9,389 nt of DNA from positions 1-9,389 of the forward strand of contig JACPKR010000069.1 of NCBI GenBank assembly GCA_016186945.1. The letters run 5' to 3'. Source of the stretch: Deltaproteobacteria bacterium. GTDB lineage: Bacteria > Bdellovibrionota_B > Oligoflexia > Oligoflexales > Bog-1112. Position numbers and translations under genes: made by a program. Positions 4,423 through 9,389 of this stretch are shown here, piece by piece. The notes beneath the pieces were generated by a model, which searched no databases, was not told the DNA's origin, and saw only the letters and a program-made list of their open reading frames with translations. Numbering within the stretch: position 1 is the first letter of the stretch; each line of letters opens with the position of its first letter.

Positions 4423-4440
4423 GAGGCTCCTCAAACATCT

Positions 4441-4519
4441 TTGCCGCAAGGAGGTGGTTTGGAGGAAACTGCTTGCCGCAAGGAGGTGGTTTGGAGGAAA
4501 CTGCGCAGCTGGTTCCTCC
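4441..4519. repeat. Two tandem 32-bp units plus hairpin (AAGGAGGTGG repeat) between der and fumC
   Basis: Two identical 32-bp units lie head to tail at 4441-4472 and 4473-4504. Each contains TTGCCGCAA, AAGGAGGTGG (4448-4457, 4480-4489) and GGAGGAAACTGC. The second unit continues into a stem-loop in which GGAGGAA (4493-4499) pairs with TTCCTCC (4513-4519). A diverged single copy with the same hairpin occurs at 8543-8589. On the minus-strand mRNA the element starts 6 nt after the der stop and ends 18 nt before the fumC start, so it forms nearly the whole der-fumC spacer. Read on that strand it carries several CCTCC and CCACCTCCTT runs, complementary to ribosome-binding sites. Confidence 0.92.
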
Positions 4520-4525
4520 CATTAC

Positions 4526-5878
4526 CTACGGTCTATTACGCGCAAGCCTCTTCGACTTGAGTACCAACTCCATCGGAACCTGCGTAAGACCCAATTGTCT
4601 TCGCAGCCCATTGCTAATAAAGCGTCTGTAAGACTCTTTTATATGCTTTGCCCGCGTACAGGTCAGCACAAATTTTGGAGGTGTTTGCGGTGCCTGTCGC
4701 AGTGAGAAAAACAAAACAGGTTTCCGTGACGTACCTTTCACATCAGGCGATCGCTGATTCGTGATCGTTTCCAGAGCTGCCTGTAAATCTTCCTCAGGAA
4801 ATTTTAGCATAAACTGCTGAGAAAGCTCCTCTACACGAGCTAAAATTTTATGGACTCGCTGGTTCTCCAGACAAGAGATGAAGTGAATAGGAATATAAGC
4901 GAGGTCTCCGAGTTGACGACGCAATGAAGTTTCCACATCACGGATCGTGTTGGCACTTTTTGCGGGGAGCAGATCCCACTTATTGACGACCAGTAGGACG
5001 GCTCGACCTCTGTCGATAGAAAGGTTAATCAGCCGCAAATCCTGATCCGTTAAACCAAGCTCAGCGTCGATGACAAGAAGGACAATGTCTGCTTTCTCAA
5101 TGGCGCTCAGACTGCGGACGACGCTTTGTTCTTCGAGCGTGTCGTGAATCCTTGCCTTCCGGCGAATACCGGCTGTGTCGATGATGACGTAAGGTTTTCC
5201 GTTATAAGTCAAAGTCGTGTGAATACTGTCGCGTGTGGTCCCGGCAATGGGGCTTACCAGGCTGCGTTCTTCGCCGAGCAGACGGTTGAGGATGGAAGAC
5301 TTGCCAACGTTAGGTCGTCCAATTAGGGCAAGACGGATACCTTTTTCTGTCCAGTTTACTTTTTTCCCTTGACCCTGAAGTTTTTCTGCCATGAGGGCGC
5401 GCAAGTCACGCAAGCCCATTTTTTGTACCGCACTCACGGCATAAAAATCGTCAACGCCTAGTTCGCAAAAATCCCAAACCGCATGTTTTTCTTCTGGGGA
5501 GTCGATCTTATTGACTACGAAGAGAATCTGCTTGTCAGCTTCACGAAGGAATTGAAAAATTTCCGTGTCGTGCGGATGCATGCCCGTCTTGCCATCGAGG
5601 AGGAAGACGACCAGGTCTGCTTCTCGCACGGCCATCTGGGTTTGTTTCCATACGATGTTTTCACCGAAGGGTTGGAACGACAACTCGTCCTTTTCAAATC
5701 CCCCTGTGTCGATGATCATACAACCCTGGCCTTCACCAAGATCAGCGCTACCGTACAAACGGTCTCGTGTCACTCCAGGCATGTCCCCTACGATCGCCTG
5801 CTTAGTGCGGGTGAGACGGTTGAAAAGTGTTGATTTGCCGACATTGGGCCGGCCTACGATGGCGACTATCCCTCGCAT
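4526..5878 (-). CDS. der: Ribosome-assembly GTPase Der (EngA)
   Basis: Der is a double-GTPase needed for maturation of the 50S subunit. The 450-residue product shows two complete G domains: the first has GRPNVGKS (9-16), DTGG (57-60) and NKID (123-126); the second has GRPNVGKS (187-194), DTAG (234-237) and NKWD (299-302). A C-terminal KH-like domain follows (about 355-445, with PKFVLTCT and the closing PMELVLKSKR). Two G domains rule out Era, the more usual neighbour of rnc. The ATG at 5878 is chosen because the protein then begins MRGIVAIVGRPNVGKS, as in the family, and AAGGA lies just upstream; a 30-codon in-frame extension to 5968 would only translate the repeat and the rnc end. The start overlaps the last 13 bases of rnc in another frame, which suggests translational coupling. 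It is slightly shorter than the E. coli protein (490). Confidence 0.97.
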   Translation of the reverse strand: MRGIVAIVGRPNVGKSTLFNRLTRTKQAIVGDMPGVTRDRLYGSADLGEGQGCMIIDTGGFEKDELSFQPFGENIVWKQTQMAVREADLVVFLLDGKTGMHPHDTEIFQFLREADKQILFVVNKIDSPEEKHAVWDFCELGVDDFYAVSAVQKMGLRDLRALMAEKLQGQGKKVNWTEKGIRLALIGRPNVGKSSILNRLLGEERSLVSPIAGTTRDSIHTTLTYNGKPYVIIDTAGIRRKARIHDTLEEQSVVRSLSAIEKADIVLLVIDAELGLTDQDLRLINLSIDRGRAVLLVVNKWDLLPAKSANTIRDVETSLRRQLGDLAYIPIHFISCLENQRVHKILARVEELSQQFMLKFPEEDLQAALETITNQRSPDVKGTSRKPVLFFSLRQAPQTPPKFVLTCTRAKHIKESYRRFISNGLRRQLGLTQVPMELVLKSKRLARNRP

Positions 5879-6693
5879 ATAGTTTTTTCCTTCCTCACAG
5901 GGGAGAGGGGGGTCAGGGGGGGCGAGGGAAGCGTCGCTCCCTCTGAAAAAAGTGCCCGAAGGGCACACCCAGCAGCAGCTTGAGAAGCCTTTTTCTTGCT
6001 GGCTCCCCTTGCTACGGCGATCTGTTTTCCACCGACAAGCACCTTCACAGTGAAAACCCTGCGGTGAGCTGGCCCCTGCGCCTCTACTGTCTGATAATCT
6101 GGCGTCTCTTTGTATTTGCCCTGCACTAACTCCTGCAGCTGAGACTTATAATCGACGTCTGTACCGGGGCCTCCCGTCGTCCCCTCTAGGATGGGAGTAA
6201 ACCAATCTTTCACGACATCGCATGTTCGCAAAAAAGAACTATCTAAATAGATGGCCCCTACCAAGGCTTCCAGGGCATTTTCTAGCAGCGCTGGATTTTG
6301 ATGGCTGCCGTTTTTCTTTTCTGCTGACCCTAATAGAAGGCATTTGTCGAGCTTAAGCGGATCCTTGGCAATACGAGCAAGAGTCGCCTGGCTGACGAGG
6401 CAGGCTTTCAGCTTGGATAGCTGGCCCTCTGTGAGATCGTTTTGGGTTTTCCAAAGAAGGGTGGCGATGATAAGACCCAGGACCGAGTCTCCCAGAAATT
6501 CCAGTCGCTCATTCCAAGGCAAAGCCCTGGGAAGAGAGTCGACGGCGGAGCGGTGAGTGAGGGCCTCAAAGAGAAGTTGGGGGTCTTTTAGCTCCAACTT
6601 AGCGGCTAAGGCATGAATATGTTGAGCTTCTTCCGGATAAGCGGCGAGAAGTTCCTGCCAGGATGAACTAAAGTTGTCGTCAGTTTGATTCAT
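5866..6693 (-). CDS. rnc: Ribonuclease III
   Basis: RNase III cleaves double-stranded RNA in rRNA precursors and structured mRNAs as a dimer. In the 275-residue product the catalytic domain has the signature NERLEFLGDSVLGL from residue 61 (Glu62, Glu65 and Asp69 equal E. coli E38, E41 and D45). The metal-binding Glu142 lies in LENALEALVGAIYLD; the position equivalent to E. coli D114 is Asn139. A double-stranded RNA-binding domain spans 181-249, with the helix GASKKKASQAAAGCAL. After it, residues 252-265 (proline-rich) are encoded by a dispersed repeat, so the protein runs about 26 residues past the normal end. The start is uncertain: ATG 6693 (used), 6708 and 6738 and GTG 6777 are in frame, and none has a good ribosome-binding site; 6777 lies in a repeat. 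A hairpin with a U-run lies in the 3' coding end. The gene is divergent from mltG and overlaps der by 13 bases. Confidence 0.93.
   Translation of the reverse strand: MNQTDDNFSSSWQELLAAYPEEAQHIHALAAKLELKDPQLLFEALTHRSAVDSLPRALPWNERLEFLGDSVLGLIIATLLWKTQNDLTEGQLSKLKACLVSQATLARIAKDPLKLDKCLLLGSAEKKNGSHQNPALLENALEALVGAIYLDSSFLRTCDVVKDWFTPILEGTTGGPGTDVDYKSQLQELVQGKYKETPDYQTVEAQGPAHRRVFTVKVLVGGKQIAVARGASKKKASQAAAGCALRALFSEGATLPSPPLTPLSPVRKEKTICEG
5901..5940. repeat. G-rich dispersed repeat inside the rnc 3' coding end
   Basis: The 40 bases at 5901-5940 match 9350-9389 at 37 of 40 positions, including the block GGGAGAGGGGGG, a run of seven G, CGAGGGAA and CGTCGCTCC. Here the element lies within the rnc reading frame on the minus strand and supplies codons 252-265, read as GATLPSPPLTPLSP. 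The der ribosome-binding site begins a few bases beyond it. The other copy is outside any gene, at the window's right edge, so its full length cannot be judged. Confidence 0.88.
5946..5966 (-). terminator. Intrinsic-terminator-like hairpin within the rnc coding end
   Basis: Read on the minus strand, GTGCCC (5966-5961) pairs perfectly with GGGCAC (5957-5952) across a TTC loop, followed at once by six T (5951-5946). This is the canonical form of a Rho-independent terminator. It encodes the last helix of the dsRNA-binding domain (CALRALF), upstream of der in the same transcription direction. On the plus strand the hairpin is preceded, not followed, by the homopolymer, so only the minus direction fits. 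Whether it terminates while ribosomes translate across it is unknown. Confidence 0.6.
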
Positions 6694-6771: not shown

Positions 6772-6880
6772 CTCCACACCCCCCCCAAAAAACTTTAAAT
6801 ACTGAAGTTTTTGAAAAGGGGGTTGGGGAAATAACTTTTTTCAAAAAGTTTGTCCCCAAATTAATTATCTTGAGCACCAT
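6772..6880. repeat. Hairpin-rich dispersed repeat, copy B, forming the mltG leader
   Basis: This is the second copy of the element at 2739-2848, with about six substitutions and one length change in the C-run, and in the same orientation. It retains the second and third stem-loops: AAAAACTT/AAGTTTTT and TTGGGGA/TCCCCAA enclosing AACTTTTT/AAAAAGTT. The first stem-loop seems reduced to GTGAGGAC TCTCCAC (6763-6777) with its centre missing. The shared sequence ATTATCTTGAxCACxAT ends at 6880, directly before the mltG ATG. No strong ribosome-binding site is present between the last hairpin and that ATG. Confidence 0.9.
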
Positions 6881-7906
6881 ATGACAAAAAAAACAATTGT
6901 CCTACTCCCTGGCGTGCTGATTTTGGCCTTTGCCTTATACCTCCTTTATTGGTCACAAGCGGAACACCCCCTTAGCCCCGACGGTGTCACGCTGAATCTT
7001 CCCAAGGGTGGTTCTCTCAAGCAGCTCTCCGACGAACTGGAAAGCAAACACCTCATAGACCACGCCCTCATGTTCCGCGTCTTGGTCAAAGCCCTAGGCA
7101 ACTATGGGAAGTTTCAAGCCGGCCACTACCGCTTCTCGGAAACTGTATCGCCGCAGGACATTGTTCAAACCATGGTCGCAGGGAAAACGTACACCCCCCT
7201 TGCTCTCGAATTCACCATTCCCGAGGGTTACACCCTAACCCAGGTTAAGGAAAAACTTGTGCGTTTTGGTATGGCTAAGGGCGATGAATTTGACGGTCTG
7301 GTGCGAAATTCCGAATTTCTGGCGTCTCTGGGAGTGCAAGCAAAAACCCTCGAAGGCTTCCTCCACCCCGCGACTTACCGTTTTTATGGAGACGGAGAGA
7401 AAGTCAGCGTCCAGGACGTCCTTGAAAGAGCCGTTCGGGAATTTTTTAGCAAAATCCCCATCCATTATGAGACAGACTTAACGGAAAAAGGCCTCACCTT
7501 CTACGAGGGCCTCATCTTTGCCTCACTCATCGAGAGAGAAACGCAGTGGGACGACGAAAAACCAAGAGTTGCGGAAGTCATATGGCGCCGACTCAAGGAC
7601 CACTCACCTCTTGGCATCGACGCAGCCCTCATCTACGGGATTGAAGACTACAAAGGGGACATCACCACACAACACTTGAAAGACCGAAACAACCCCTATA
7701 ATACTCGCATCCATAAGGGCCTTCCCCCCACTCCTATCGGCGCCCCCTCGCTCGTCTCTCTCAAAGCTGTACTCAACCCTACGACGGAAGGCTATTATTT
7801 CTACGTACTTTTACCCGGCAGCGAGAAACGACACCACTTTTCGAAGAACCTCAACGAGCACAACCGCTTCGTCCAAAGACTGGTGAAGTTTCAAAAAACC
7901 CAATAA
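6881..7906 (+). CDS. mltG: Endolytic murein transglycosylase MltG
   Basis: MltG (YceG family) cuts nascent glycan strands at the inner membrane during peptidoglycan synthesis, fixing glycan length. The 341-residue product has a single N-terminal membrane anchor (about 6-23, TIVLLPGVLILAFALYLLYW), a LysM-like segment (about 35-100), and the catalytic domain. The catalytic glutamate is Glu218 in ASLIERET, the same number as in E. coli MltG. Other family blocks are LEGFLHPATYRF (157-168) and the C-terminal NPYNTRIHKGLPPTPIG. The length equals the E. coli protein (340). The ATG at 6881 gives the expected N-terminus, but only a weak TTGAG lies upstream, within repeat copy B. It diverges from rnc and is followed 8 nt later by a Uma2 gene. 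The common alphaproteobacterial neighbour fabF is not here. Confidence 0.95.
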   Translation: MTKKTIVLLPGVLILAFALYLLYWSQAEHPLSPDGVTLNLPKGGSLKQLSDELESKHLIDHALMFRVLVKALGNYGKFQAGHYRFSETVSPQDIVQTMVAGKTYTPLALEFTIPEGYTLTQVKEKLVRFGMAKGDEFDGLVRNSEFLASLGVQAKTLEGFLHPATYRFYGDGEKVSVQDVLERAVREFFSKIPIHYETDLTEKGLTFYEGLIFASLIERETQWDDEKPRVAEVIWRRLKDHSPLGIDAALIYGIEDYKGDITTQHLKDRNNPYNTRIHKGLPPTPIGAPSLVSLKAVLNPTTEGYYFYVLLPGSEKRHHFSKNLNEHNRFVQRLVKFQKTQ

Positions 7907-7914
7907 GGAACTGT

Positions 7915-8523
7915 ATGGAAGCCCAGAGAAAGACAGTAGAGACAAGAGACGCACTTAAAACCATAGATGACTTGGCGAGTCTTCCCGAGGGGGAAAAGGC
8001 CGAACTCCTGGGGGGAGAAATTGTGATGATGGCCCCAGCCTCCTTCAGGCATTCCAGGCTTGTCTCGGGTTTAACGTCAATTCTTTGGAATTATTGCGAA
8101 TCACAAAAAATCAAGGGACCCAAGGGGCCCGAATCATGGATCGTCATCGCGGAGGCGTGGACCTTCTACGACCGACATAATTCATTTGTTCACGATCTCG
8201 CGGCATTCATTAGAAGCGAAGTCCCTCTGTCAATAAAAGGACCCGTCCGCTCTAAACCGACTTGGGTGTGCGAAATCCTCTCTCCTTCCAACTGGTATAA
8301 CGACATGAACCATAAGAGAGAGATGCTCGAAAAACATAAAGTCCCCTACTACTGGATCGTTGACCCAGAGAAGGAAATGATCCAAATTTTCTACCTGGAA
8401 GAATCCGCAAAGCACTACCGAATCCTGAAAATCTTCGGACGAGAAGACGGAGAAGCCCGCCTTGCACCTTTCAACGAGATGACCATCAATCTGAAGACTC
8501 TCTTCGGCGAAGACAAAGAGTGA
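7915..8523 (+). CDS. Uma2-family (DUF820) putative PD-(D/E)xK endonuclease
   Basis: A 202-residue protein with the Uma2 fold pattern: an N-terminal AELLGGEIVMMAPAS with HSRL (about 29-49), then the putative metal-binding core Asp94 (HDLAAFI, where the family usually has PD), Glu120 (WVCEILSPS), Lys134 (NDMNHKREML), and the closing VPYYWIVDPEKEMIQIFYL (143-161). Uma2 proteins are restriction-endonuclease-like in structure. They are common in cyanobacteria, Chloroflexi and some other bacteria, often in many copies, and their biological role is largely unknown. All three candidate active-site residues are present, so the gene looks intact. The ATG at 7915 follows the mltG stop by 8 nt, with AAGGA overlapping that stop, so it is probably expressed from the mltG promoter. 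Horizontal acquisition is plausible but not shown by base use. Confidence 0.87.
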   Translation: MEAQRKTVETRDALKTIDDLASLPEGEKAELLGGEIVMMAPASFRHSRLVSGLTSILWNYCESQKIKGPKGPESWIVIAEAWTFYDRHNSFVHDLAAFIRSEVPLSIKGPVRSKPTWVCEILSPSNWYNDMNHKREMLEKHKVPYYWIVDPEKEMIQIFYLEESAKHYRILKIFGREDGEARLAPFNEMTINLKTLFGEDKE

Positions 8524-8526
8524 TCT

Positions 8527-8537
8527 GTAATGCGTAA
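8527..8537. repeat. GTAATGCGTAA direct repeat, left copy
   Basis: The 11-mer GTAATGCGTAA at 8527-8537 recurs in the same orientation at 9322-9332, in both cases followed by C or G and then CC. It starts just after the Uma2 stop. The two copies bracket the toxin-antitoxin pair. The match is short, so it may be the edge of a larger repeat family or a chance match. Confidence 0.4.
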
Positions 8538-8542
8538 CCCGC

Positions 8543-8589
8543 CTGTAGCAAGGAGGTGGTTGGGAGGAAACTGCGCAGCTGCTTCCTCC
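8543..8589. repeat. Single diverged copy of the AAGGAGGTGG hairpin repeat
   Basis: This matches 4473-4519 closely, sharing GCAAGGAGGTGGTT and GGAGGAAACTGCGCAGCTG, with a few substitutions. GGAGGAA (8563-8569) pairs with TTCCTCC (8583-8589). It lies between the convergent Uma2 (stop 8523) and toxin (stop 8600) genes, 10 nt beyond the toxin stop. The other copy lies 6 nt beyond the der stop in the same orientation relative to its gene. The hairpin lacks a T-run, so it is not a standard intrinsic terminator. Confidence 0.85.
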
Positions 8590-8599
8590 AAGGAATTCC

Positions 8600-9016
8600 C
8601 TATGCAGGCTCAAATGATTTGATAAAAGAGTATCTTTTGAACCCGTTATCAAATGTGCTAATTCTTTTCACCCCATTTTCAAAGAAAGTGTACGCGATTT
8701 GAAAATCGAATATAGAGTTTCCTCCCACTCCAGAAGGGATTTTCTCCAAACCATTTTGCCACCAGTTGAAAGAACTGCTAAACACTCGAAGGTCATAAGC
8801 GTTAATCAGTTCATCCAACATATTGCATGCGTCTCTGAATTTTAGAGGCTTAGGGAACACTCGTGGATGAGTAAGAAGGCGTAGAAATTCACTCGTGTTG
8901 ACGAGAGTCGTGCTTAGGGGATCACCGACTGAAGATACCCAGTTTTTCACTTTCGCATGATGCTCGTGTTCCAAAACGCAGATGGCGACAAGCACATTGG
9001 TATCAATCCCGATCAT
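8600..9016 (-). CDS. vapC: PIN-domain toxin, VapC family
   Basis: A 138-residue PIN ribonuclease of the VapC type, the toxin of a type II toxin-antitoxin pair; such toxins cleave specific RNAs, often tRNA or rRNA. All four metal-binding acidic positions are visible: Asp5 (IGIDTNVLV), Glu43 (TSEFLRLLTHPRVF), Asp104 (IFDFQIA) and Asp123 (STFDNGF). The TSEFLRLLTHPRVF block is typical of the subfamily that pairs with short MKTxLNI antitoxins, which is what lies upstream. The ATG at 9016 has GGAGGTG 4 nt upstream (9021-9027), inside the antitoxin gene, and the two genes overlap by 14 bases, so toxin translation is probably coupled to that of the antitoxin. The gene appears intact. The RNA target cannot be read from sequence. 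Confidence 0.93.
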   Translation of the reverse strand: MIGIDTNVLVAICVLEHEHHAKVKNWVSSVGDPLSTTLVNTSEFLRLLTHPRVFPKPLKFRDACNMLDELINAYDLRVFSSSFNWWQNGLEKIPSGVGGNSIFDFQIAYTFFENGVKRISTFDNGFKRYSFIKSFEPA

Positions 9017-9242
9017 CGAGCACCTCCATCCAATGCTCTCGAGAATTGAGGTCTACTCTTGGCTTGCCAAGAGATCTTGCCCGGAATGTCTTTTTTTTCT
9101 TTTTTCCCCCTTCCATTGCCTCAAGTCTTTGACCTTTTTCTGCCCAGCCACTTATGATTTCGCTGACCGTTTTCCCTTTTTCCAAGGCTTCTTTTTTAGC
9201 GAGTTTGTAAAGGTTTTCAGCGATGTTCAGGGACGTTTTCAT
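9003..9242 (-). CDS. vapB: Ribbon-helix-helix-type antitoxin, VapB family
   Basis: A 79-residue protein beginning MKTSLNIAENLYKLAKKEA, with KTVSEIISGWAEKG after it. This is the strand-helix-helix pattern of short MKTxLNI antitoxins that bind operator DNA as dimers. The second half is basic and then acidic, including five consecutive lysines (47-51) encoded by homopolymeric A tracts, and should be the flexible part that wraps the toxin. The ATG at 9242 has AAGG about 7 nt upstream. It overlaps vapC by 14 bases and precedes it, the usual antitoxin-first order. Two identical palindromes in its promoter region are likely autoregulatory operators. Two slippery A-AAA-AAG heptamers lie at 9099-9105 and 9090-9096 in the reading frame. 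Confidence 0.88.
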   Translation of the reverse strand: MKTSLNIAENLYKLAKKEALEKGKTVSEIISGWAEKGQRLEAMEGGKKKKKTFRARSLGKPRVDLNSREHWMEVLDDRD

Positions 9243-9321: not shown

Positions 9322-9332
9322 GTAATGCGTAA
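9322..9332. repeat. GTAATGCGTAA direct repeat, right copy
   Basis: This is the right-hand match of the 11-mer at 8527-8537, lying upstream of the antitoxin promoter, between it and the G-rich repeat at the window edge. Confidence 0.4.
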
Positions 9333-9349
9333 GCCACTTGGGGCAAATA

Positions 9350-9389
9350 GGGAGAGGGGGGTTTGGGGGGGCGAGGGAACCGTCGCTCC
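9350..9389. repeat. G-rich dispersed repeat, second copy, cut by window edge
   Basis: This matches the element inside rnc (5901-5940) at 37 of 40 positions, in the same orientation. The differences are TTT for TCA in the middle and CC for GC near the end. It reaches the last base of the window, so its right boundary is unknown. The bases 9303-9349 between the antitoxin promoter and this copy contain nothing else that can be identified apart from the short direct repeat. Confidence 0.88.

Follow-up and report, generated by a model that had tools for sequence, protein, structure and literature searches.

A dispersed G-rich repeat probably inserted in frame in the variable C-terminal tail of a bacterial RNase III gene

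How a conserved ribonuclease came to carry a proline-rich tail encoded by a dispersed repeat, and whether the same event made its gene overlap the next one, are the questions raised by the rnc-der locus of a 2.66-Mb draft genome in 76 contigs (G000). The window, which is the whole stretch of 9,389 nt analysed here, corresponds to contig C63 of this draft. It contains rnc (5866..6693, (-)), which encodes an RNase III of 275 aa as identified by its ORF, by the Pfam domains Ribonuclease_3 and dsrm, and by alignment with the RNase III (48-51% identical) of G001, the sole same-genus genome available. The double-stranded RNA-binding domain (dsRBD) ends at residue 247 according to Pfam and its last helix at residue 250 in the AlphaFold2 prediction, in agreement with the end near residue 249 given in a preliminary description of this DNA. 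Based on the alignment with G001, residues 1-251 and 266-272 are native, residues 252-265 (GATLPSPPLTPLSP; 5899..5940, (-)) are repeat-encoded, and the final three (CEG) run into der; the predicted C-terminal peptide is GATLPSPPLTPLSPVR. Codons 252-265 form a net insertion of 42 nt relative to the same-genus rnc, a figure that, like the exact insertion borders, comes from one close comparison (with G001) of a fast-evolving tail. The preliminary description had already assigned residues 252-265 to a repeat at 5901-5940 that is 37/40 identical to a second copy at 9350-9389, and coordinates, peptide and identity are all correct. It had also reported ten further residues overlapping the start of der: these residues do follow GATLPSPPLTPLSP, as VRKEKTICEG, but the detail of the overlap differs, as it measures 13 nt (5866..5878, (-)).

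The repeat copy within rnc (5901..5943, (+)) is a solo copy of a G-rich unit, GGGAG...CTCCC, with 3/40 mismatches to the consensus and four G runs, and the template strand of rnc is its G-rich strand. In 200 Markov simulations of the window that kept its dinucleotide make-up, no match to the consensus exceeded 26/40, whereas the two observed copies match at 37 and 40 positions, which excludes chance as an explanation of the copies in the window. Across the whole G000 genome, 100 copies lie within three mismatches of the 40-mer and 176 copies of a degenerate 36-mer were found, split about equally between both strands, while a control with the reversed pattern gave zero. Copies were absent from all 55 relatives searched, including the same-genus genome, and none turned up when 84,980 GTDB species and IMG/VR were scanned for exact matches, although the records of G000 itself may be absent from these collections. 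As judged from these searches, the repeat is lineage-specific.

A census of the stretches around the listed copies (597 kb), based on a comparison of the 30-nt G-rich core in 166 copies, demonstrated two forms of the repeat. About 140 copies are near or inside a 146-bp element, and 118/166 lie between two modules that together form a palindrome. This composite form measures 143-148 bp in 44 of 46 pairs, has perfect 25-bp terminal inverted repeats (GTAATGCGTAAGCCACTTGGGGCAA), and is flanked by target duplications of 8 bp in 19/46 and of 9 bp in 5/46 cases; with terminal inverted repeats and target-site duplication, it is a MITE. The window holds the left end of such an element at 9322..9389 (+), where the terminal repeat (9322-9346) and a consensus core (9350-9389) are cut by the contig end, as well as an incomplete element of this MITE family (8527..8591, (+)), which has the terminal repeat and the inner palindrome but lacks the G-rich core, and, between der and fumC, two tandem partial copies of the inner part (4434..4520, (+)). 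The other form consists of solo cores (23/166 copies), which have unrelated flanks and common ends, approximately GGGAGAGGGGGGTTTGGGGGGGCGAGGGAACCGTCGCTCCCCCA, and are 43-45 nt long. The rnc copy belongs to this form, and no remnant of the MITE arms is seen beside it. The 44-nt core consensus has no stop codon in any of the six frames; in the 146-bp MITE, a single frame in each direction is free of stops. Either strand of the core folds as a GC hairpin, and four runs of at least three G with short loops are retained in 160/166 copies, which makes it a putative quadruplex-forming sequence; a quadruplex on the G-rich strand is therefore possible as far as sequence can indicate.

Candidate routes of mobilization were also considered. 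No clear target-site duplication was detected among the 23 solo copies, whose only shared ends are GGGAG/CTCCC, and insertion into hairpin loops, tried as a target rule, clearly fits only 1/23. IS66 was hinted at by the GTAA ends and 8-bp duplications of the MITE, but an IS66 transposase was not found in G000. A RAYT was likewise rejected as mobilizer: Y1_Tnp genes occur at four places, two without a repeat nearby, one with the terminal repeat and one with a composite copy, and none has a solo core in its vicinity. A few MITE copies lengthen or truncate the ends of genes. Examples are an aspartokinase (G000:C3:16214-17620) and a Maf protein (G000:C54:45905-46831), in which MITE-encoded sequence takes the place of the C-terminus or adds to it, and both are possibly truncated genes. 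In addition, a perfect 32-nt inverted repeat (CTGTCATCCCGCGGCTTGACCGCGGGATCCAA) is present at 51-137 of the window, just upstream of lon, and also after one MITE copy on contig C27.

With genes called from codon usage on the fetched DNA (82% coding), 154/166 copies were intergenic and 12/166 lay within ORFs, supporting the earlier proposal that the tail peptide stems from a dispersed, mostly intergenic repeat. Solo copies are strongly enriched among the genic ones (7/23 versus 5/143 of the others; Fisher p = 2e-4), and 14 of the 16 intergenic solo copies, as counted from the list, are within ~30 nt of the 3' end of a gene, in many cases where two genes converge. Besides rnc, solo copies are read in frame in genes for MoeA, a GT4 glycosyltransferase, an AMP-binding ligase, a T2SSE-type ATPase (two copies) and a TraG-like ATPase, identities that Pfam confirmed for these ORFs. 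Four frames are used, giving GATVPSPPQTPLSL, GERRFPRPPTPPSP, RERGVWGGEGTVAP and KGEGGLGGRGNRRS. In G001, the orthologous glycosyltransferase and AMP-ligase are without the repeat peptide. In the AMP-ligase the repeat substitutes for part of a hypervariable loop without lengthening it, and in MoeA it lies in a loop of varying length with a gain of ~8-12 aa, less than 14, suggesting that a local deletion accompanied some of the copies. The T2SSE-type ATPase (G000:C15:20829-22658) has an N-terminal linker in which two tandem repeat-encoded peptides and a degenerate third can be recognized by eye, and the flanking peptide DSVGLDIEFG is duplicated.

The segment that received the repeat in rnc appears to be free to vary, as suggested by the range of tail lengths within the order and by the low confidence of the predicted tail. 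The G000 protein has 34 residues past the dsRBD anchor, compared with a median of 16.5 (range 9-43) in 28 relatives of the same order and of 12 in 64 other bacteria. AlphaFold2, run with 36 homologues, predicted the RNase III fold confidently up to residue 250 and gave pLDDT < 50 for residues 253-271; the tail is thus predicted to be disordered. The most probable reading (roughly 0.8), based on sequence comparison, is that a solo repeat inserted in frame in the variable coding tail of rnc and behaves like the Rickettsia palindromic elements (RPEs). In such a process, a solo copy of 43-45 nt would have entered the tail downstream of the dsRBD but upstream of the ribosome-binding site and the start of der, lengthening it by exactly 42 nt net. 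With a repeat that is stop-free in all frames, the frame kept and an unstructured tail, RNase III would remain intact with a translated 14-residue proline-rich insert, and the signals for der would be preserved. In at least five further conserved genes this repeat would likewise have inserted in frame, in variable loops or tails; elsewhere it lies between genes, usually against their 3' ends, as might be expected of selfish DNA tolerated by protein-coding genes. Against this reading count the comparison with a single same-genus genome, the lack of an evident target-site duplication in the solo form, and the AMP-ligase and MoeA copies, which did not add the full 14 residues. The simplest expectation is a neutral or slightly harmful effect of the insert on the enzyme, such as was reported for an RPE in Rickettsia guanylate kinase (PMC2229807). 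Another peculiarity of this RNase III, Asn in place of a metal-ligand Asp in NALEA, was set aside as ordinary, the residue being Asn in 15/80 other bacteria.

The preliminary description, whose view that the repeat behaves in a Rickettsia-like manner agrees with the data above, had placed the insertion at the original rnc stop, where it would have turned the rnc-der spacer into coding sequence and so created the overlap. It is true that the codons after the repeat peptide run into der, that a spacer exists in several relatives (gaps of 4-15 nt in four same-family genomes), and that in G005, a genome of the same family and another genus, a different repeat adjoins the rnc stop without any overlap. 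However, rnc and der already share 4 nt (ATGA or GTGA) in 15/29 relatives including G001, with the relative frame unchanged throughout, so that by this comparison the overlap is ancestral. Between SQAAA, the dsRBD anchor, and the ATATG of the der start, G001 has 17 codons; the window has 14 more, 31 in all, and the last seven rnc codons align with G001 without gaps, with the ribosome-binding site of der at equal distance. This putative site (AGGAAGGAA; 5887..5895, (-)) lies in rnc codons 267-269, downstream of the insertion, which points to an insertion inside the old coding tail, ten residues past SQAAA. The larger overlap has another source. The gene der (EngA GTPase; 4526..5878, (-)) starts in the window with MRGIVAIVG, one codon fewer than in most relatives (MIxG...): its start reads ATG CGA GGG (M-R-G), whereas M-I-x-G was counted by eye in 22/29 relatives. 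The junction codons are AAG GAC CTG CAC ATA TGA in G001 and AAG GAA AAA ACT ATA TGC in the window; the Ile2 codon is missing, and the A after ATG, which completed the rnc TGA, is gone. The rnc stop consequently moved nine nt further downstream, extending the overlap from 4 to 13 nt, and this change is explained by the altered der start and not by the repeat. Creation of the overlap by the repeat is thus very unlikely.

A regulatory role was also considered, in which the rnc copy is a domesticated element: rnc-der expression would be tuned by a hairpin or G-quadruplex on the template strand or by a hairpin at 5952-5966, with the peptide as a mere by-product. The GC hairpin of the core, the retention of four G runs in nearly all copies, the position of intergenic solo copies next to gene 3' ends and the occupation of the G005 rnc-der junction by a different repeat would all suit such a role, as would a terminator-like hairpin, GTGCCC-TTC-GGGCAC followed by TTTTTT (5952-5966, (-)), which lies within the rnc codons for CALRALF, just upstream of the rnc repeat copy and of der. 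Nevertheless, the rnc mRNA carries the C-rich strand, which is unable to form a quadruplex, and the single terminator-like match compares with 0.4 expected in shuffled sequence, leaving regulation by domestication improbable. An assembly or binning artefact, by which the repeat was wrongly joined into rnc, might be suspected in a draft of 76 contigs, some ending in the repeat, the more so as the window itself ends within a copy. Yet the mismatches of the rnc copy (TCA, G) are its own, its right end differs from that of other copies, and it is bordered left and right by unique sequence; der and rnc keep the collinearity seen in relatives; and the contamination estimate of G000 is 0.17%. Such an error is hardly credible, and the in-frame insertion of a solo repeat in the old coding tail remains the preferred reading.

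In-frame insertion of dispersed repeats in conserved proteins is best known from Rickettsia. The G000 case involves a much shorter element, open in six frames, whose copy number and spread make it possible to test by what rules insertions are tolerated (variable loops, tails and gene 3' ends). RPEs are dispersed palindromes of 100-150 nt, some of which are in frame in conserved genes (Ogata et al. 2000, 2002; PMC10969869, PMC2229807, PMC3767692). Like them, the G000 repeat is lineage-specific and dispersed, is carried in frame by unrelated conserved genes that stay intact, and is also intergenic. However, the rnc form is a 43-45-nt hairpin with G runs, open in six frames and read in at least four, and is not palindromic over its length, whereas the 146-bp palindromic form is nearly always intergenic or at gene ends. 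The rnc form was not classed as an RPE, given that it has neither the unit size of 100-150 nt nor the palindromy. The composite form resembles QMITE1 and QMITE2 of Coxiella in its 143-148 bp, 25-bp perfect terminal repeats, 8-9-bp target duplications and open frames through the element, and QMITE2 extends enhC by 33 C-terminal residues (PMC5896051); in contrast, the rnc copy is the inner core only, without terminal repeats or a visible target duplication. The quadruplex-forming repeats of Xanthomonas and Nostoc are similarly genome-wide and G-rich with four G runs, mostly intergenic and often within 50 nt of stop codons, but they are tandem heptamers (PMC4692102), whereas the G000 repeat is a fixed 44-nt unit that forms part of a MITE. 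REP elements are GTAG/CGTC-tagged palindromes, short hairpin repeats (20-40 bp) outside genes (PMC3733652). The G000 repeat is also a short hairpin and its solo form adjoins gene 3' ends, but no GTAG/CGTC-tagged end was seen by eye and no solo core lies beside a RAYT (Y1) transposase gene.

A parallel was found in the sister genus by picking the outlier among rnc tails, the longest among the relatives being that of G005. This tail holds a dispersed repeat of G005's own, with at least 40 copies near TTTCTAAAGAGGGCGTTCCCCCCTCTTTAGGATTCTCCCCCCTG, which is in frame as ..LSFSKEGVPPSLRIFPPLGM (G005:C66:4520-4636). A further in-frame copy, ..SLSLSKEGVPPSLEISPLSS.., is present in the G005 AMP-ligase (G005:C95:31743-31792), the orthologue of the repeat-bearing ligase of G000, with the insertion at another site. 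The repeats of G000 and G005 follow a common plan, a hairpin and then a C run; homology between them was rejected, as 155/500 shuffles reached the alignment score. Tentatively, the short repeats of this family may be either directed to gene ends and permissive coding sites or favoured there by selection, which would provide a recurrent route from intergenic repeat to protein. As a natural experiment, the parallel bears on whether such insertions are directed or occur at random and are simply tolerated.

Several other features of the window were observed. A second dispersed repeat of 101 nt is present at 2749-2849 and 6781-6881 (+), the two copies being 96% identical; one lies after lon and the other directly before, and just into, the YceG/MltG start codon. 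A gene for a PIN-domain (VapC-like) protein (8600-9016, (-)) has a probable small antitoxin-like ORF upstream (~9010-9241, (-)) and is adjoined by a Uma2 gene (7915-8523).
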